Shown piece by piece: positions 44,563-53,054 of a stretch of 64,000 bases of DNA. The DNA lies in NCBI RefSeq assembly GCF_000146325.1, contig NZ_GL397067.1:1820860-1884859 (forward strand). The letters are read 5' to 3'. Each line of letters opens with the position of its first letter. Position 1 is the first letter of the stretch. Below the pieces are notes generated by a model that was not told the DNA's origin, made no database searches, and worked only from the letters and a program-made list of their open reading frames with translations. Made by a program: the position numbers and the translations under genes. The stretch is from Pediococcus acidilactici DSM 20284 (GTDB lineage: Bacteria > Bacillota > Bacilli > Lactobacillales > Lactobacillaceae).

Positions 44563-44620
44563 AAAAAGCTCCCCATAGTTGTTAGATTTCTGTTATCCAA
44601 CAACTATGGAGAGCTTTTTT
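44563..44620. terminator. Strong bidirectional terminator
   Basis: A 21-base stem (44563-44583 with 44599-44620; arms include CCATAGTTGTT/AACAACTATGG) with AAAAAGCT and AGCTTTTTT ends lies between the convergent GNAT gene and the exopolysaccharide cluster. Confidence 0.88.
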
Positions 44621-44714: not shown

Positions 44715-45569
44715 TTAAACATCATATTGCGTTTCTTTAATTCCATCATTCATTAAGTCATAAGGGTTGTCCATTTCTTCCGCGTCCCATTCTGAAACCC
44801 CAATAACCATGGAAATGGCTAAATCTGCCAATTCTGGACTTTTCTTAATACTTTTTTCAAATATATCTTTAGTACGTTGCGCCACAATTCTACCTCCTGC
44901 GGCATTACTATATAAAAGTACTGCCCATGTTGGATCGTTATTATCCAACAAGTAGGTAATGTCGTTACCACGGGTAGACCCCTTAATTACTTCTGAGGTA
45001 ACTTTTAACAAAAGCTGGAGTTGACGTTCACTCATCATTCTTCGTAAATCATTAAAATATCTTATTTTAATAATCAAAGTGGTTACCGGAATATCAAACC
45101 GTCGACTAGTTTCAATGAATACCCCAGCATCTTCTACATATGCCACGGTTGTCCGTAAATTGGTTTGTTGATCAAAAGCACCCTTTTCTACTAATTCTGC
45201 GTATAATTCATTATTAGCCTTTTGTAAGGCGATTTGACTGCGAGCCATGGAATATAGTGCAACTGAGGCCAACATCGGTATTACTAACCAAAAAATTAGC
45301 GTCCACTGTACTTCACGATTCAACCCAAAATATTCATACAACATAACCACAGTTTGAAAGGCAATGAACACCATGTTTGCTAACAAGCTTGGAATAATCC
45401 CCATGAAGTAAGTAATAATTAAGATTCCCACTGTAATAATGAGGTAAACAATGTTTACAACTATATTCTGTGAAAGCACCATTAGGACAGCTGTAATAGC
45501 GAGCATTAATAAAAATGCAAGTAATCCAACGTCCCCGTATAAATGTTCTTTACTATTTTTGTTTCGCAT
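44715..45569 (-). CDS. Membrane protein with degenerate GGDEF domain keeping the c-di-GMP I-site (PssE-like)
   Basis: The 284-residue protein has about five hydrophobic segments (residues 12-108), a short coiled linker and a GGDEF-fold domain (about 130-265) that opens with FDQQTNLRT, the counterpart of the usual DxLTxLxNR. The active-site GGDEF is replaced by DNNDP (209-213), so it cannot make c-di-GMP. But the inhibitory-site motif RxxD is intact as RGND (200-203), with the canonical five residues before the GGDEF position. Listeria PssE is a c-di-GMP receptor of this kind. It overlaps the BcsB-like gene by 17 bases and is last in the cluster. Confidence 0.85.
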   Translation of the reverse strand: MRNKNSKEHLYGDVGLLAFLLMLAITAVLMVLSQNIVVNIVYLIITVGILIITYFMGIIPSLLANMVFIAFQTVVMLYEYFGLNREVQWTLIFWLVIPMLASVALYSMARSQIALQKANNELYAELVEKGAFDQQTNLRTTVAYVEDAGVFIETSRRFDIPVTTLIIKIRYFNDLRRMMSERQLQLLLKVTSEVIKGSTRGNDITYLLDNNDPTWAVLLYSNAAGGRIVAQRTKDIFEKSIKKSPELADLAISMVIGVSEWDAEEMDNPYDLMNDGIKETQYDV

Positions 45570-47673
45570 CTTTAGGACCTCCGTTTAGCATTGCCTGTTT
45601 TCTAAAAACTAGGTAAACACCAAACCCGATTACCACAATTGCTAAGAAAACAATCCCGAGATAAATAATCAACTGACTGTTTTTGCTGATAATCCGTTTA
45701 TGTTCTAAACCTCGATCAATGTATTTATTTTTCTTAAATCGATAACTATAATGCGCATTGTCTTGATCAACGACAATTGCATCACCCATAAATTGATCAA
45801 TGTTTTTCTTAAAGTTAATTTGAGTCGAGCCTAAGTAGCTTGCCTCAGGAGTAGCTCCTGTTACTATCAGCATCCCTTTCTTATCATTTTCAGGCGAACG
45901 AATTAACTGTGCGGTACCAATGGTCTTTCCATAATCTTTTTCAATGCTGAGTTTTTCGTTAGAAACAAATCTTTTAAAATTGTCTGAATACTTAAAGTAT
46001 AAGTCTTTATTTAGTGACTTAATTAGCGGATTATTAGTAGGCGTTCCCAGAACAATTAAATTATCATTGGCCATTACTTCCTTGCTAGGACGTTTAGTAT
46101 AAAATTTTATTTTTCCAGTATTACTCTTGGCATAAGCTCCAATCAGATTAAATATATTCGTTAAACTTTTAAAGTCTATTGCGGTTAACTTTTTAGGCAC
46201 GACTACCGCTAAATTGTCATACGTTTGATTTTTTATAAAAATCGTTGGGTAATTAGTAAATAGTAAGTCGTTACTTTTCTCTGACTTAACTCTCATTTCT
46301 GAATTCATATCTACTTCCGCCCAAGGTGTTTCAGAATTATCAGAAGCCGATTGATTTTGCATTTCCAAATCAAACGCCACCCGAACCACAAAGTTATTTC
46401 CTAAAGAAGTACCTTTGGGAACTTCTAGTGTAACTTCATCTCCGTTAGCCTTAGCAGCCGTTAATTTTTTACTTCCTAGCGTAATGTCATTGACGTATAC
46501 CGTCACTAAGGAACGCTTAAAATCCAGGTTTTTGCTGTACCGAAAATGCAATTTCACCTTGGAACCATCTGCATTTGTCCGATCGTTGGGAAGGGAGACA
46601 AAGTAGCTAGTTTCGCGGTGTCCAGCCCCCTTAATTTTATCAATAACGTTTGTTAGTTTATACTTACCTTCATCTTGAATTTCGGATGTAAAGGTATCTG
46701 TCAAATACGAAACTGTCTCGATATTTTTATTCGTTTCATTCATTAATTCGGCATTAGCAAAAAATTGCGCAGCTTTTTTCAGCAATTTGTCTGTTTTAGC
46801 CGTTACAATTAGATAATCCCCGTTTTTGGTGTAATGTGTTTTGATTACCGCTTGGTTATCAACGTCTTTTTCGTTAACTTCTTTTTTCAGAGACTCAGGT
46901 AAGTGATCATATCTAGCAATATATAAAATATAATCACCCTTAGTAGCATTCATATCCGTGTCTCGAAAGACATTGATTTGGTCATTATCTGTAGTGATCA
47001 CCCTTGATTCTCCCGCTAAAGCAGTCATACTAGCGGATAACTCACCTTTAGTTGGTTGATTGGGAGTAACAATTTTAGAATTCTGATACGTGATCGTATC
47101 TTGACCAGAAAAATGATCATAGAAAGAATGCAATGTGTTTTCGGGATCCTTTAATTCATATTTAAAATTCACATTGGACCCGGCTTTAATCGTTAACCAG
47201 TTAGCTGGCGTTTGCGCTAAATTGTAACTTTTAGAATCTTTCTCGTTTAAAATTTGTCCCTTAATTTCAAGCTTGTTAGTCCCCTCTAATAGTTCCAGAG
47301 GGATTTCAACTTCTTTACTCTGAAAGCCACTTCTGTGAGCAGGTCTAAAGGAGAAAAATTTAACACCGTTTAGCGAAATTGTAATGTCAGATACCTCTTT
47401 ATCTGCTAATTGAGATACTTGATAATTAAAATTAAAAGTTGCCTTTTTAATGTTCCAGTAATCCATCTTGGTAAAATACATGCTAGTTGATGTAGACTTC
47501 CCAGATAACGTCATCGTGTCTTTTTGGAAGTTTTGTGTATAAGTTAAGTCCTCAGCGTGAACTTGACTCACATTAATCAACATCATCACCAACATAGTTA
47601 ATGTCAAAACTACTATTTTACTTATAACGCTTGGTTTTATACCACTTTGCTTGTTTATGAAAGACTTGTTCAC
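45553..47673 (-). CDS. BcsB-like exopolysaccharide synthesis protein (PssD-like)
   Basis: From GTG 47673 the product is 706 residues with a basic N-terminus and signal peptide cut near VSQVHA-ED, a large extracellular part and one membrane segment near the C-terminus (IYLGIVFLAIVVIGFGVYLVF). The repeated carbohydrate-binding-like blocks (DYWNIKKATFNFNYQVSQL and DISLNGVKFFS-type) match BcsB-type partners of processive glycosyltransferases. The start is not certain: the frame extends to ATG 47703, inside the upstream gene, but GTGGGG before GTG 47673 and the signal peptide favour the later one. Confidence 0.8.
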   Translation of the reverse strand: MNKSFINKQSGIKPSVISKIVVLTLTMLVMMLINVSQVHAEDLTYTQNFQKDTMTLSGKSTSTSMYFTKMDYWNIKKATFNFNYQVSQLADKEVSDITISLNGVKFFSFRPAHRSGFQSKEVEIPLELLEGTNKLEIKGQILNEKDSKSYNLAQTPANWLTIKAGSNVNFKYELKDPENTLHSFYDHFSGQDTITYQNSKIVTPNQPTKGELSASMTALAGESRVITTDNDQINVFRDTDMNATKGDYILYIARYDHLPESLKKEVNEKDVDNQAVIKTHYTKNGDYLIVTAKTDKLLKKAAQFFANAELMNETNKNIETVSYLTDTFTSEIQDEGKYKLTNVIDKIKGAGHRETSYFVSLPNDRTNADGSKVKLHFRYSKNLDFKRSLVTVYVNDITLGSKKLTAAKANGDEVTLEVPKGTSLGNNFVVRVAFDLEMQNQSASDNSETPWAEVDMNSEMRVKSEKSNDLLFTNYPTIFIKNQTYDNLAVVVPKKLTAIDFKSLTNIFNLIGAYAKSNTGKIKFYTKRPSKEVMANDNLIVLGTPTNNPLIKSLNKDLYFKYSDNFKRFVSNEKLSIEKDYGKTIGTAQLIRSPENDKKGMLIVTGATPEASYLGSTQINFKKNIDQFMGDAIVVDQDNAHYSYRFKKNKYIDRGLEHKRIISKNSQLIIYLGIVFLAIVVIGFGVYLVFRKQAMLNGGPKDAKQK

Positions 47674-48847
47674 GAATATACCCCACCATTCCATATGCTG
47701 CAACTGCTAACCACATTTGACTATATACTAAATACATGAAAATTATATAAATAACGTTACTAAAACGCATTTCACCTTTTTCGGTCGTAATCGTTACAAA
47801 AGTGCTAATGATAAACATAATAATTCCAAATAGCCATAAAGCATTACTAAATCCTTGTAAATCTGAATGTGCTAGCCCCGCTACTGAAAGCACAAAAACT
47901 ATGTCTGATAATATCAAGGCCGACATCAACAAAAAATATGTTGATAAAAAATATAGTAAATCAAACCGAATTGGACGACCTGCCTTCTTAAAAAGCAGTT
48001 TAGCGTTCTTCACAACCACGTAAATATTCCCCTTTACCCAGCGCGTACGTTGATGAAACCAAACGTCTAGGGTTTGAGGCTCCTGCTCCCAAGTAACGGC
48101 ACGTGGCTGGAATTTAATTCTGTAGCCCATTTGGTAAACTCGAAAGCTAATCTCCGTATCTTCGGCTAAGGCTTTAACATCCCATCCGCCAATCTTTTCC
48201 AAAATTTCCCTTCTAATAACATAATTAGTTCCTGGGATAGTGCATAGCTTAAATAGCCTTTGTCGTCCTGCTTGAGCCATCCATTGAAACGAAAGGGTCT
48301 CAATGTTAATAAACCTGGTTAAAACAGTCGCTTCTTTATTTCTTGTTCTAAATTTTCCAATTACAGCTGCTAAACGATCACTTTGTAGAAGTTCCGCTAC
48401 TAAAAGTCGCAATGCGCTTCGTTCCGGAGTATTATCTGCATCATAAACCGCAATAACACTCCCTTTCGCTTGTTTTAACCCAATATTGAGCGCGTTAGAC
48501 TTCCCTTTTCCACCTGTAACATTATCCGTATTGATAACCTTCAAGCGTTCCTCACCAAAATCTTTTTGTACCTCTCTTAATAGTTCAGCTGAATTGTCAC
48601 TTGAATTATCATTAATAACGATAATTTCATAACGGTCATGCGGATAATCAAAGCTAAGAAGTGATAACACCGTTTTAACAATTACAATCCCCTCATTATG
48701 GGCCGGCACCATCACCGTTACAAAAGGTATCTCTTCAGGAAGCTTTTTATCAGGTTTGGGAACTTCTTGTAGATACCAAGTATATCCAGCAACCGTTAAA
48801 ATTAAGTTAATTATCAGCGTTCCCCAAATGGCAATAATTGCAACCAT
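47618..48847 (-). CDS. Processive glycosyltransferase, GT2/BcsA-like without PilZ (PssC-like)
   Basis: The 409-residue protein has an N-terminal membrane segment, a GT2 catalytic domain and three to four C-terminal membrane segments. Catalytic signs are INDNSSDNS (about 78-86), DAD (136-138), LAED (227-230) and QRTRW (266-270), the Q/RxxRW motif of processive synthases such as cellulose and hyaluronan synthase. There is no PilZ domain, so c-di-GMP sensing must come from another subunit. A good ribosome site (GGGGAGAGAG, 48884-48874) lies 26 bases before ATG 48847 but only 8 before ATT 48865. Confidence 0.9.
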   Translation of the reverse strand: MVAIIAIWGTLIINLILTVAGYTWYLQEVPKPDKKLPEEIPFVTVMVPAHNEGIVIVKTVLSLLSFDYPHDRYEIIVINDNSSDNSAELLREVQKDFGEERLKVINTDNVTGGKGKSNALNIGLKQAKGSVIAVYDADNTPERSALRLLVAELLQSDRLAAVIGKFRTRNKEATVLTRFINIETLSFQWMAQAGRQRLFKLCTIPGTNYVIRREILEKIGGWDVKALAEDTEISFRVYQMGYRIKFQPRAVTWEQEPQTLDVWFHQRTRWVKGNIYVVVKNAKLLFKKAGRPIRFDLLYFLSTYFLLMSALILSDIVFVLSVAGLAHSDLQGFSNALWLFGIIMFIISTFVTITTEKGEMRFSNVIYIIFMYLVYSQMWLAVAAYGMVGYIREQVFHKQAKWYKTKRYK

Positions 48848-48883
48848 CAGGAAAAAATCTAAAATTGTGATTACTCTCTCCCC

Positions 48884-50434
48884 CTATCTCTTGAACATGT
48901 TTTTGTATATTTTTCTTCCGAACGCAATAAAAATGGTTAACACAAAAAAAATAATCGCAAAGAAAACCATGATGATTCGTCCTTGAACTCTGAAAAATCC
49001 TTTAAATAGTGCCGGTGTCTCTACTGATTTAGGTAAACTTTTCTCTTCGGCAACAGTTTTCACCTCAGTTACTTTACCATTTACTAAATATTGTCCGTTT
49101 TGATAAGCAATTAACGAACTTGCAACGTCAATCTTTGAATTAAAGTCTTCGGCTGGATTCTGCCACGTAAAATTCAATGCATGAATTTGTTCCTTTAAAT
49201 TCTTTAATCTCACCTTGCTATCTGGCATATTAAAAGTTAAGGCGGTAGGCATCGCAAACCTGACATCTTCTTGATTTTTAATTTTGTTAAATCCTGAAGC
49301 CGCAAGTGCTAGGTAACTACGGCTACTCGTCTCACCCTGGTTATCCTGTTTCAAATAAACTACTTTTTTATTAGGAAATAGCATCCAATAATTTGCTTTT
49401 TTTAAAGCATTATTCCGTAAAACTTGATCCTGATCCCAAAAAACTTGCGCACTAATTCCGACTGGATAAACTTGATTTTGAGCCAAATTAAGTAAATAAT
49501 TGTCGAATAACTCACTTAATTCAGTTGCGTTATTTACCGTCGCTCCTCCAATTACCGGAGCCTGCAGGAAGATTACACCACCACGGTCCTCAATTCTGCG
49601 TAAACTTCTAGTAAAGCGTTTATAAGCATCCATTTCGGTATTTTTCGCTACGGTTGTGGTGCTAACAGCAAAAGGCACCCCAAGATTTTCGCAATACGAA
49701 CTTAATTCATCCAGCATTTTTAAATTACTGTAAGGTGTCACATTAGCGATTGTTAACAAAGGTTTTGTCTCTTGTTGTCGATCAAACAAAGTAGCAATCA
49801 TTTTTCCAGCCGTAATCAACCCCAGCCCTCTATTATTCAAGAAGGGTAAGTATCCTTGATTGCGGTTGATAATCCCATACGCATATGACTGCTGATCTTT
49901 GTCTTGCGTTTTTAATTCACCATACCTTTGCGCTTTTTTTGGAATTCCAGTCAAAACGTCCATTCGATCCACAAACGGGATCATTTCAGTACTATTTCCA
50001 TCTCTTAAAATTAATTGTTGTTGATAGATCGTTTTTAGTTTCACTTGCAGTTGTTGTTGTTCAATCGGATCAAGCCCTTCACCAATATGTAATTTAATTC
50101 CATCATATTGATCACGATCTTTAATAAAAGCCGGATTAACTAGCTGGGCTTTTTTCCAATTAATCATGGTTATTACTCCTTGATAGCCACGACTTAGTTC
50201 GCCTTTTTGATATTCACTCTCTTTGACGGTTGTGACCTTGAGACCTATTCCAGCTAATATTCTTTGCAAAGTGTCAATCTTTTTCTCACCTTGTTCAACA
50301 GTATTTTGAGAGTCATACACCAACAAAACATGATTACTGTCACGTTTGCTCCCATACACCGTTTGATTTGCTTGAATTATTCCACTGAAGGCAATCAAGA
50401 AAATAGTTAATAACGGAAAAAATATTTTACGCAT
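48884..50434 (-). CDS. DUF2334-type polysaccharide deacetylase-like protein, exported
   Basis: The 516-residue protein has a signal peptide (residues about 1-22, FFPLLTIFLIAFSGIIQA), an extracellular domain and one membrane segment near the C-terminus (IIMVFFAIIFFVLTIFIAFG). The domain around LLTIANVTPYSNLKMLDELSSYCENLGVPFAVST fits the DUF2334 group of divergent polysaccharide deacetylases. The classic metal-binding HxxxH is not obvious, so enzymatic activity is uncertain. It overlaps the upstream gene by 8 bases. Confidence 0.78.
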   Translation of the reverse strand: MRKIFFPLLTIFLIAFSGIIQANQTVYGSKRDSNHVLLVYDSQNTVEQGEKKIDTLQRILAGIGLKVTTVKESEYQKGELSRGYQGVITMINWKKAQLVNPAFIKDRDQYDGIKLHIGEGLDPIEQQQLQVKLKTIYQQQLILRDGNSTEMIPFVDRMDVLTGIPKKAQRYGELKTQDKDQQSYAYGIINRNQGYLPFLNNRGLGLITAGKMIATLFDRQQETKPLLTIANVTPYSNLKMLDELSSYCENLGVPFAVSTTTVAKNTEMDAYKRFTRSLRRIEDRGGVIFLQAPVIGGATVNNATELSELFDNYLLNLAQNQVYPVGISAQVFWDQDQVLRNNALKKANYWMLFPNKKVVYLKQDNQGETSSRSYLALAASGFNKIKNQEDVRFAMPTALTFNMPDSKVRLKNLKEQIHALNFTWQNPAEDFNSKIDVASSLIAYQNGQYLVNGKVTEVKTVAEEKSLPKSVETPALFKGFFRVQGRIIMVFFAIIFFVLTIFIAFGRKIYKNMFKR

Positions 50435-51914
50435 CTTCGTTTTCCTCCCGTTCAGTTAGCCACAGTTGATCATTCAAGATATCAGAGATAAACATTATGA
50501 AAGTTAGGTCTAAACTAAGTGGTACCATGAACAAATGTTTTGCTAAATCTGCATCTCCATCTCCAATAATCGAAACAATTGGAACAAATACACAAATTGT
50601 CATCAATCCTAATACTAGGAAAAATCGCATAACTCCTAGAAGTCTTCCAGCCGTAAAATCGATATACGCACTAACTGCATATACGCCTATAAACGTTATC
50701 GCTAAAAGACACAAGAAAGCATACTTCCCGGGGAAAAAAGCTCCTGCTAACGAACTATAAAATGTAAAAAACGTACTCTGCTGCCCCGGCTTTTTACCTG
50801 AATCTTTGGTATAATCTCCCACAGCTTTGACCTGGGTGACCATGATATCTTTACTAGCAACATCTAGCAATCGCAAAAATTGATTAACATTTTTAGCATA
50901 ATACTTAACAATCCAGGCAAAATTATATTTTGCCATTAAGTGCTTTTTAATGTATGGAGAACTTGGATCACTCGTATCAAATGTTTTTGCATAGTAGTCC
51001 TGTTCCCGCATCAAAGCGAATTGTTCGCTCAAGCCATTTTTGGCGATATTTTTGCTGGGGTCACCCGTTTCCATCAAGACGCCATGAGAAAATGCTTGAT
51101 ATTGATTAACATCGTTAAACTCTTTATTAATTAAACTGTACGTTAAAACTCCCGCTCCTAAAGTAGCCAGTAATCCACCGATTAATGCTAGTTTTTTGGC
51201 TTTTTTTAAACCCGGCAAGAAAAACAAACCAATTGAGATTACTCCAAAGCTTAAAGCTAAGGGAGCGTTTTGCTGTTTGCTAGTAATTAAAACTACTACG
51301 CTAGTAAAATATAGTAGTACCAGTTTCCAACGTTTGAAGTACTCTCCACGAGCCAATAATATAACTGAAGCAAATGCATACAAAAACGAGATCAACATCG
51401 CTGGTTCGGCAAAAAAGGAATTAAAGTATAAAACAAATGACGCATCCCCAAAAATAATCACCACTAAAATAGCAATGACATAGCTTCGAATACGTCGCCA
51501 AGATCCCGTAAGTGCCTTGGTTAGTAAATAAATTCCTGGCAAAAATGCTACATAATATACCACACCCAGAAAACGTATATCGAAATAACGCTGGCTATAA
51601 AATAATTTATTTAACATAATTGCAGCTTTGACAAAAAGTGCTTGAGAGGTAAAAACAGCAACATTATTTTCGTTAAAATATTTTAAAATCCCAAATTTAG
51701 TTACTACGTATCCAATATACTGACTACTTTTAGTTGGCAAACGATAAACGCCATTACTTAACATTGCACGGTAAAAATCCCCATTATCTGCGTAACCGTT
51801 AATTGGTGGCACAAAAAGAATCACAGCACAAATAACCGCTGCTAGCATAGTTGCCATTGCAGCGGGTGATACATGATTTTGAAATATCCTCCAACATCTT
51901 TTAACCGAAACCAT
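50427..51914 (-). CDS. Multi-pass membrane glycan-synthesis protein (WsfD-like)
   Basis: The 495-residue protein has about ten to twelve hydrophobic segments with an early extracellular loop holding NGYADNGDFYRA, a feature of GT-C-type hexosyltransferases such as WsfD and its relatives (acidic residues in the first loop). It lies second in the exopolysaccharide cluster, 12 bases after the GH8 gene. A role in adding a sugar or modifying the polymer outside the membrane is inferred from context. Confidence 0.72.
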   Translation of the reverse strand: MVSVKRCWRIFQNHVSPAAMATMLAAVICAVILFVPPINGYADNGDFYRAMLSNGVYRLPTKSSQYIGYVVTKFGILKYFNENNVAVFTSQALFVKAAIMLNKLFYSQRYFDIRFLGVVYYVAFLPGIYLLTKALTGSWRRIRSYVIAILVVIIFGDASFVLYFNSFFAEPAMLISFLYAFASVILLARGEYFKRWKLVLLYFTSVVVLITSKQQNAPLALSFGVISIGLFFLPGLKKAKKLALIGGLLATLGAGVLTYSLINKEFNDVNQYQAFSHGVLMETGDPSKNIAKNGLSEQFALMREQDYYAKTFDTSDPSSPYIKKHLMAKYNFAWIVKYYAKNVNQFLRLLDVASKDIMVTQVKAVGDYTKDSGKKPGQQSTFFTFYSSLAGAFFPGKYAFLCLLAITFIGVYAVSAYIDFTAGRLLGVMRFFLVLGLMTICVFVPIVSIIGDGDADLAKHLFMVPLSLDLTFIMFISDILNDQLWLTEREENEDA

Positions 51915-51926
51915 TTTAGACCATCC

Positions 51927-53054
51927 CTATGATTGTGAAGCTAACAATGCTAGTAAATTATTAAATGAATAAGCATCATTATTTTTAGTATCGCCGAGTG
52001 CTCCATAAATTTCCGATTTTTTGTTTTGAACCTGATCTTCCCAGACCAATTTCATTGCCTTTTGGTAATATTTGTAGTTGCCACTTCTAGCAAAAATCAT
52101 TGCAGCTAAAGCATAGTTACCCGTTGACTGGCTATGGTCAGCAATCGCTCCTGCGGTTGTATAGCTGTTGTATAACTTTTTATTATCAACCTGCATTTCT
52201 AACCAATTAGCTGTCTCAGTCTTCATCTTTCCTATCTCAGCTAAATGTAATACCGTGATTAAAGCCTCGGAAGTATTAAGATTTTCTGTACCATATTGGT
52301 TAGTCTTCCAATTGTAGTTTGGAGCATACAAAGGAAAAATATCCCCTAAATATCCTTGCTTAACTAGCTTTAACTGCTTTTGGTAATAATCACGTTCTTT
52401 CTTTGATACGGATTCAAAATACTTTAAGGTAGCTAAATCGTAGTAAGCTAGTGAACTTTTATTACTAGTTTTTTTGGTACGTACGTCATAAAAATCAAGC
52501 ACTCGGTCTTTATGAATACTTGTTGTTTGAAGCATCGCAAACCGTTTTGCCGCTTCCCGGCGATATTTTTCACTATTCGTATTTTGTGCGTAGATTTGTA
52601 AAGCTCGAATGATTCTTAAATCATCTATCGTTGCGTTCACATCAGATTTCTTCTTGGTTTTATCATCGATTCGATAACTGAATTGTCGACCTTGATCAAA
52701 GTATTTCTTAGTATGCTGATAAAATTCACGAAAAGCTTTGTTTTGGTGTGTTTGGGCCAAATACTCTAACCATAGTCCTGACGACTCGGATAACATATCA
52801 TGCCCGGTTGCCTTATCGGACTTCTTTTGTTCATTATTAAAGTTTGTATAAATACCAGCTTTTTGGACCATCGAATTTTCTAAAAAATTATGTAGCAATT
52901 CTACATTTTGATTATTCTGGTGGTATCGTGTCGCGATTGTTAAATTATTTGCATCTCCCTTAGGGACTTTAATTTGAGGTTGTTTTTGTCCACAACCGCT
53001 CATCGTAAAAATGCTCGCGAATATTAGCACTAAAAAAATAATCTTCTTATCCAA
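51927..53054 (-). CDS. GH8-like glycoside hydrolase lipoprotein (PssZ/BcsZ-like)
   Basis: The 375-residue protein begins with a lipoprotein signal (IFTMSGC, lipidated C21) and has an (alpha/alpha)6 barrel typical of GH8. HDMLSESSGLWLEYL carries the likely catalytic acid E90 and NATIDDLRIIRAL the catalytic Asp region (144-145). Hydrolases of this kind accompany cellulose and Pss-type polymer synthases and trim or release the polymer. It is the first gene of the cluster, with a gap of 284 bases to rnhA. It is not a close match to any enzyme I can name with certainty. Confidence 0.8.
   Translation of the reverse strand: MDKKIIFLVLIFASIFTMSGCGQKQPQIKVPKGDANNLTIATRYHQNNQNVELLHNFLENSMVQKAGIYTNFNNEQKKSDKATGHDMLSESSGLWLEYLAQTHQNKAFREFYQHTKKYFDQGRQFSYRIDDKTKKKSDVNATIDDLRIIRALQIYAQNTNSEKYRREAAKRFAMLQTTSIHKDRVLDFYDVRTKKTSNKSSLAYYDLATLKYFESVSKKERDYYQKQLKLVKQGYLGDIFPLYAPNYNWKTNQYGTENLNTSEALITVLHLAEIGKMKTETANWLEMQVDNKKLYNSYTTAGAIADHSQSTGNYALAAMIFARSGNYKYYQKAMKLVWEDQVQNKKSEIYGALGDTKNNDAYSFNNLLALLASQS

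Follow-up and report, generated by a model that had tools for sequence, protein, structure and literature searches.

A Pss-type exopolysaccharide operon with a predicted c-di-GMP receptor of degenerate GGDEF fold in Pediococcus acidilactici

Results

A six-gene Pss-type operon in Pediococcus acidilactici

A 64,000-nucleotide stretch of the Pediococcus acidilactici DSM 20284 genome (RefSeq assembly GCF_000146325.1, contig NZ_GL397067.1, positions 1,820,860 to 1,884,859; hereafter the window) carries, at window positions 44715-53054, six genes that very probably form a Pss-type, synthase-dependent exopolysaccharide operon in which cyclic di-GMP (c-di-GMP), acting on the catalytically dead GGDEF protein PssE, would switch the synthase on. 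A preliminary description of the window, made from its letters and open reading frames (ORFs), had proposed these six adjoining minus-strand genes, and a check of the ORFs bore out their coordinates and strand; all six are open and overlap or are separated by short gaps. The genes and the features discussed below are as follows.

51927-53054, minus strand: GH8-like lipoprotein, a relative of PDB entries 3ren and 6r2m.
50427-51914, minus strand: WsfD-like GT-C membrane glycosyltransferase, counterpart of PssA (NCBIfam NF051875, 511 bits; cut-off 80).
48884-50434, minus strand: DUF2334-like membrane-anchored protein, counterpart of PssB, with ThuA/GATase-like and CE4-like domains in its AlphaFold2 (AF2) model.
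47618-48847, minus strand: GT2 synthase without PilZ, counterpart of PssC (Pfam match, E 6e-34; DAD, AED, and QRTRW motifs).
45553-47703, minus strand: BcsB-like protein, counterpart of PssD (Pfam PF03170, E 5e-42).
44715-45569, minus strand: counterpart of PssE, with N-terminal helices, a long helix at residues 97-131, and a degenerate GGDEF domain (Pfam, AF2 model, PDB alignment).
44961-44972, minus strand: RGND of PssE, with predicted I-site residues R200 and D203 (residue conservation, alignment with 3ign).
44925-44945, minus strand: DNNDPTW, the degenerate GGDEF turn of PssE (alignment with 3ign, conservation in 97 rows).
44874-44876, minus strand: R232 of PssE, predicted third I-site residue (lost jointly with RxxD, aligned with 3ign).
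44568-44614, minus strand: terminator-like hairpin of 20 pairs with a T tail after the PssE gene (terminator scan; a class near chance, with 7 found versus 5.6 expected).

Five of the six genes have homologues in the same order in a Listeria-type pssA-E cluster (genome G574, locus L175), with identities of 36, 22, 64, 35, and 32% from PssA to PssE. We took G574 to be Listeria because its PssE, of 284 residues, bears the 208-DKDDA motif as published, and because its genome has two neighboring cyclases plus a third, as in the available text on the Listeria system (PMC4125290).

PssE is a dead GGDEF protein with a predicted I-site

AF2 modeled PssE as helices at residues 2-33, 36-56, 58-82, and 89-95 and the long helix, followed by a GGDEF fold (mean predicted local distance difference test score, pLDDT, 85.8; predicted template modeling score, pTM, 0.55). 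All 50 structural matches listed for this model (Z 17.4-21.6) were cyclases or other GGDEF-containing entries. The top three, tied at 21.4-21.6, were of one bacteriophytochrome cyclase, and the best matches included the c-di-GMP-bound domains 3ign (Z 21.0, root-mean-square deviation (rmsd) 2.1, 154 residues aligned), 5euh (20.6), and PleD 2wb4 (20.4). At the sequence level, the Pfam GGDEF family (PF00990) scored only 13.2 bits, short of the 23.8-bit cut-off for classing the protein as a diguanylate cyclase. The nearest named relatives are from Pediococcus pentosaceus (80%) and P. stilesii (67%).

RGND occupies residues 200-203 of PssE and DNNDP residues 209-213, which is the five-residue spacing expected of an I-site. 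In a profile alignment with 3ign, R200 and D203 paired with the RxxD of that protein and R232 with an arginine further along, the GGDEF turn carried a two-residue insertion, and the phenylalanine of GGEEF paired with W215. The I-site residues were placed by this PDB alignment; comparison of the PssE profile with nine cyclases matched the domain as a whole but left gaps in the I-site region. In PleD numbering, the three I-site positions are R359, D362, and R390. The dead motif and the RxxD spacing of the preliminary description thus hold, but it had missed R232, which was added from the 3ign alignment.

The I-site residues are conserved together and lost together

We collected pss loci from 84 Lactobacillaceae and from 17 members of other families of the same order. 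The order GH-GTC-DUF2334-GT2-BcsB-PssE was present in 61 of the 84 Lactobacillaceae loci; ten had five genes with no GH seen, five had the GH gene downstream of PssE, and eight were partial, cut, or orphan. Among the 17 other loci, seven had all six genes, nine had the five Listeria-type genes without GH, and one (L178) had only a weak GGDEF match. PssE accompanied BcsB in 81 of 82 BcsB-bearing Lactobacillaceae genomes, and in the exception (G170) the contig ends right after BcsB. The resulting PssE alignment has 97 rows (81 Lactobacillaceae, 16 others); left out were L099 (G325, stops), L115 (G388, cut), L116 (G243, fragment), and the second copies L121 and L122.

In this alignment the RxxD of PssE is not a chance match: it is kept in 79 of 97 rows, and GGDE or GGEE occurs at residues 209-212 in none of them. 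R232, which was not used to sort the rows, was present in 79/79 RxxD keepers versus 2/18 losers, and G225 in 78/79 versus 3/18. W94, L138, and Y206 were invariant in both classes (79/79 and 18/18), Y282 was present in 76 keepers and D283 in 78, each with all 18 losers, and the segment that replaces the GGDEF turn ended in W215 in 96/97 rows. All 19 Listeria-type (g47) genomes kept RxxD, nine as judged by alignment and ten by pattern; L143, L144, L151, and L153 were blank in the pattern check, and their genomes are in the 97-row alignment. Both this pattern of conservation and the structural matches support a PssE that would bind c-di-GMP rather than make it.

Among 398 genomes drawn from across the phylum, PssE matched 14 at E 1e-10 apart from the window's own; two of these matches were ordinary cyclases and 12 were PssE-like proteins without a GGDEF motif. 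All 12, which lie outside the order, keep RxxD, with arginine at position 232 in seven and lysine in five, which argues for a probably ancestral I-site whose losses took place inside the order.

Separately from the I-site, the C-terminal YDV tail of PssE (residues 282-284; window 44718-44726) is kept whether or not the I-site survives, and most PssE-like proteins found beyond the order have it too; a contact with the synthase is a possible role.

Genomes without c-di-GMP enzymes keep PssE and lose its I-site

Among 397 Lactobacillaceae genomes, 186 had a strong GGDEF match (E < 1e-12, a threshold of our choosing; 190 passed the search cut-off) and 83 a strong PssE match, some of these genes being partial. 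At E 1e-3, 88 genomes matched PssE, and five were left out as weak (G096, G105, G130, G302) or a fragment (G227). Strong GGDEF matches were present in 76/83 PssE-bearing versus 110/314 PssE-less genomes (Fisher p ~1e-21, kinship ignored). The seven PssE-bearing genomes missing a strong GGDEF match, together with three further such genomes in family f3, also gave no EAL match at E 0.001, and in all ten of these genomes found to have neither GGDEF nor EAL enzymes PssE was kept and its I-site was lost. Of the ten, G017 is 87% and G396 84% complete, and GGDEF matches below the threshold (E 0.02-0.42) occur in G308, G349, G396, G593, and G638. Among the 79 I-site keepers, the cyclase test took in 75, all but the Listeria-type rows G465, G592, G512, and G611.

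As PssE persists in genomes that have neither its I-site nor c-di-GMP enzymes, a c-di-GMP-independent role for it is also probable, and comparison across these genomes suggests that PssE is probably a structural subunit of the synthase whose c-di-GMP control can be lost. If PssE were purely structural in P. acidilactici as well, the operon would run without c-di-GMP control and its I-site would be inherited but idle, which would agree with the ten enzyme-less genomes and with eight further rows that have cyclases but no I-site. This we regard as unlikely, given that all three I-site residues are intact in the window's protein and elsewhere decay together, that RxxD is universal among the PssE-like proteins outside the order, and that cyclase genes directly adjoin the cluster in several genera. 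With respect to the last point, at least 37 of the 84 Lactobacillaceae loci and at least 3 of the 17 others have a cyclase or EAL gene in the examined stretch; these counts are lower bounds, as one GGDEF gene in L178 escaped the neighbor scan. In 5/5 g24 loci a GGEEF cyclase ORF begins 34-65 bases after PssE, in 3/3 g54 loci a GGDEF-EAL fusion lies 201-405 bases after it, and in L043 and L079 a cyclase is directly upstream of the GH gene. The window's own pss locus has no adjoining cyclase or EAL gene.

The same residues bear on whether PssE senses a different nucleotide, such as cyclic di-AMP (c-di-AMP) or pppGpp, through its modified GGDEF site. The catalytic turn is indeed swapped for a non-GGDEF segment ending in W215, and c-di-AMP is made by lactic acid bacteria according to the accessible part of PMC10243994. 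The conserved residues are nonetheless those of the c-di-GMP I-site, and they disappear in every one of the ten genomes without c-di-GMP enzymes, making this alternative very unlikely in our estimation.

A GT2 tree implies at least four changes of the I-site and at least two of cyclase presence. The g22 and f3 operons are near neighbors on this tree, so a single loss with later transfer may account for both. The tree holds 89 of the 97 rows, as four had no GT2 and four were short; L051, a false GT2 match (36 bits), was kept as a long branch. The wider and more interesting finding of this work is that the I-site residues decay jointly in lineages lacking the signal; few independent events underlie it.

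The c-di-GMP circuit of the Pediococcus genome

The window itself encodes neither a cyclase nor a phosphodiesterase, as the preliminary description had stated; the genome encodes both elsewhere. A search for GGDEF and EAL proteins found a single strong GGDEF cyclase (C1:1205550-1207492; L180 7551-9493), which has GGEEF and no RxxD at the I-site place. Directly beside it is an EAL protein in which the usual catalytic residues are present, and a second such EAL protein is encoded elsewhere. The preliminary description had named the lack of an active diguanylate cyclase in the genome as a reason to abandon its proposal; since a cyclase predicted to be active is present, that objection falls.

A third EAL protein, anchored in the membrane, is degenerate at the usual residues (Asn to Lys, Asp-Asp to Asn-Asn, Glu to Val). 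Its gene belongs to a gts-like operon (C1:1420984-1423626; L179 6985-9627) that also encodes a GT2 and a small membrane protein having hydrophobic stretches. We also observed, at C1:1154981-1156945 (L184 6982-8946), a gene for a 654-residue BcsA-like GT2 with a C-terminal PilZ domain bearing RRSER and DVSDGG, which adjoins another glycosyltransferase gene and genes for membrane proteins. PilZ was found in 3 of the 12 Pediococcus members searched, including the window's genome. The EAL catalytic residues and the PilZ diagnostic motif used to call these proteins are those we assume to be diagnostic. Taken together, the degenerate EAL protein, the PilZ-GT2, and PssE therefore point to three synthases whose predicted c-di-GMP receptors differ in fold, with one cyclase predicted to serve them all. 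A UDP-GlcNAc 2-epimerase gene is also present in the genome and is not polymer-specific.

Products of the five genes upstream of PssE

The GH8 assignment of the lipoprotein rests on PDB matches to 3ren (E 4e-34) and to 6r2m (E 3e-11), which we take to be Listeria PssZ, although the entry itself reads only glycoside transferase. SESSGL and TIDDLRI of the lipoprotein align to SESEGL and TIDELRI in 3ren and to AESIGL and VDDFRI in 6r2m. These matches and the WsfD score agree with the earlier GH8 and GT-C calls, and the calls of a BcsB-like protein and of a GT2 without PilZ are strong in Pfam; the DUF2334 call is weak, with a Pfam match (E 0.0099) under the cut-off.

The DUF2334-like protein was modeled (pLDDT 87.3) with two domains, the first ThuA/GATase-like and the second CE4-like. 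ThuA-like proteins ranked first in fold comparisons (Z 13.3), closely followed by galactosidase and amidotransferase domains, and matches covering both domains were Agd3 (357 residues aligned), NDST1 (340), and PelA (324), at Z 11.4-12.6 and rmsd 7.5-8.9. These two-domain matches, together with single-domain deacetylase matches, are the basis for a deacetylase-like reading. A profile search against PDB sequences found no convincing relative (three matches, best E 0.074). CE4 deacetylases carry Asp-Asp and His metal-binding motifs, and neither these motifs nor a conserved histidine were seen in 31 DUF2334-like rows at positions judged equivalent by eye. The model and this apparent absence therefore suggest that the product of 48884-50434 is probably a non-catalytic, chain-handling protein with an Agd3/PelA/NDST-like two-domain architecture.

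A Pfam domain search found no PilZ domain on the window GT2, which on that count is not a cellulose synthase of the BcsAB type. Its best NCBIfam match was nevertheless PgaC/IcaA (181.6 bits, under the cut-off of 422) and its best PDB matches were cellulose synthases, so that cellulose or poly-GlcNAc might be proposed as the product in place of a Pss-type polymer, all the more as BcsB is the cellulose partner. We think this rather unlikely: the GT2 is 64% identical to the Listeria-type Pss GT2, and the four other operon genes with counterparts there are pss genes.

The start of the GT2 gene is uncertain, as homology extends 5' of the first ATG to ~48865, within 47618-48868, and this upstream stretch has no in-frame ATG, GTG, or TTG. 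The real start of the BcsB-like ORF probably lies downstream of the mechanically called TTG. An Rfam search of the window found no RNA family at gathering score, and a tRNA scan of the window found none.

Discussion

We infer that the Pss-type operon would work as follows. The GT2, PssC, would polymerize an activated sugar and pass the chain through the membrane, where the BcsB-like protein would receive it outside. The WsfD-like protein would probably attach a side sugar, the DUF2334-like protein, with its deacetylase-like fold apparently lacking metal ligands, would probably bind the chain, and the GH8 lipoprotein would trim it. c-di-GMP, made by the single GGEEF cyclase and removed by the two EAL phosphodiesterases, would be bound by PssE through R200, D203, and R232, turning PssC on.

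Several results weigh against c-di-GMP control of a Pss-type operon here. First, PssE itself is only 32% identical to the Listeria-type protein. Second, a promoter scan of the window gave 34 sites versus 31.6 expected and thus no signal beyond chance. Third, c-di-GMP could act mainly through the other two predicted receptors, and PssE matches were absent from 7 of the 12 genus members examined, all 12 of which have a GGDEF match; c-di-GMP must therefore have other uses in the genus. Fourth, GGDEF enzymes coexist with a degraded PssE I-site in seven g20 genomes and in G580, so the presence of a cyclase is no guarantee of an intact site. Finally, the link between cyclase and I-site comes down to two independent contrasts on the GT2 tree, without statistical power.

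The g20 loci with degraded I-sites (L058, L067, L070, L074, L077, L080, L083) showed no GH gene, and EAL genes are present in all seven and in G580. We considered a receptor swap in g20, with the EAL gene 1.4-1.8 kb after PssE as the new receptor, and dropped it, as in the four loci inspected the EAL residues were the usual ones by eye and the gene was also cut off from PssE by an opposite-strand oxidoreductase-like gene.

A broader proposal, to which we give somewhat less than even weight, is that PssE is a structural subunit first and a c-di-GMP switch second. The switch would be ancestral and removable, decaying as a unit (R200, D203, G225, R232), above all in lineages without c-di-GMP enzymes, and leaving a signal-free synthase; in Pediococcus, one cyclase would feed three synthases through an I-site GGDEF protein, a degenerate EAL protein, and a PilZ domain. 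The natural I-site losers are a ready set of proteins for separating the structural and sensing roles of PssE, and a food-grade genus allows safe study of a Listeria-type polymer. With strong GGDEF matches in 186 and strong PssE matches in 83 of the 397 Lactobacillaceae genomes, c-di-GMP control of surface polysaccharides may be widespread among food bacteria.

Comparison with known systems

The Listeria monocytogenes Pss system has in common with the window's operon a dead GGDEF protein with RxxD five residues before the motif, a GT2 without PilZ, and a BcsB partner. The window has the gene order, the dead-GGDEF/RxxD protein as the last gene, and the GT2 without PilZ with its BcsB-like protein, and, judged by motif, its genome has cyclase and phosphodiesterase genes as do Listeria Pss genomes. 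The preliminary description's match to Listeria Pss accordingly stands for five genes by gene-by-gene comparison and breaks down at the sixth: the GH8 gene is inside the operon here, whereas the Listeria glycosidase gene is grouped with the cyclase genes, and one cyclase is predicted in the window's genome versus three in Listeria (PMC4125290, in the text available). The same source (Chen et al., 2014, PMC4125290) gives a dissociation constant of 0.79 uM for c-di-GMP binding by Listeria PssE and reports that polymer production in Listeria monocytogenes requires pssC as well as pssE.

Within the Lactobacillaceae, the gts operon of L. acidophilus likewise places a c-di-GMP receptor gene beside a GT2, and that species, like the window's genome, has one GGDEF protein with a neighboring EAL gene (He et al., 2018, PMC6123363, as excerpted). 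Unlike PssE, the gts receptor is built on a degenerate EAL domain rather than a GGDEF domain, and the available portion of that paper describes no BcsB, GT-C, DUF2334, or GH8 gene in the gts operon (PMC6123363). The gts-like operon of the window's genome lies elsewhere, outside the pss locus. Pel synthase genes, as we understand them, differ from those of the operon described here. PelD of the Pel system, like PssE, is a membrane-anchored degenerate GGDEF I-site receptor, unlike PssE has a GAF domain, and requires for binding both RxxD and a further arginine, R402 (PMC8461298, in the part accessible).

No paper on PssE in Lactobacillaceae was found in the open-access literature, preprints not covered, and no print record of such an operon was found for this family. 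The Pss operon with an integral GH8 gene in a lactic acid bacterium is a real system of a known kind.

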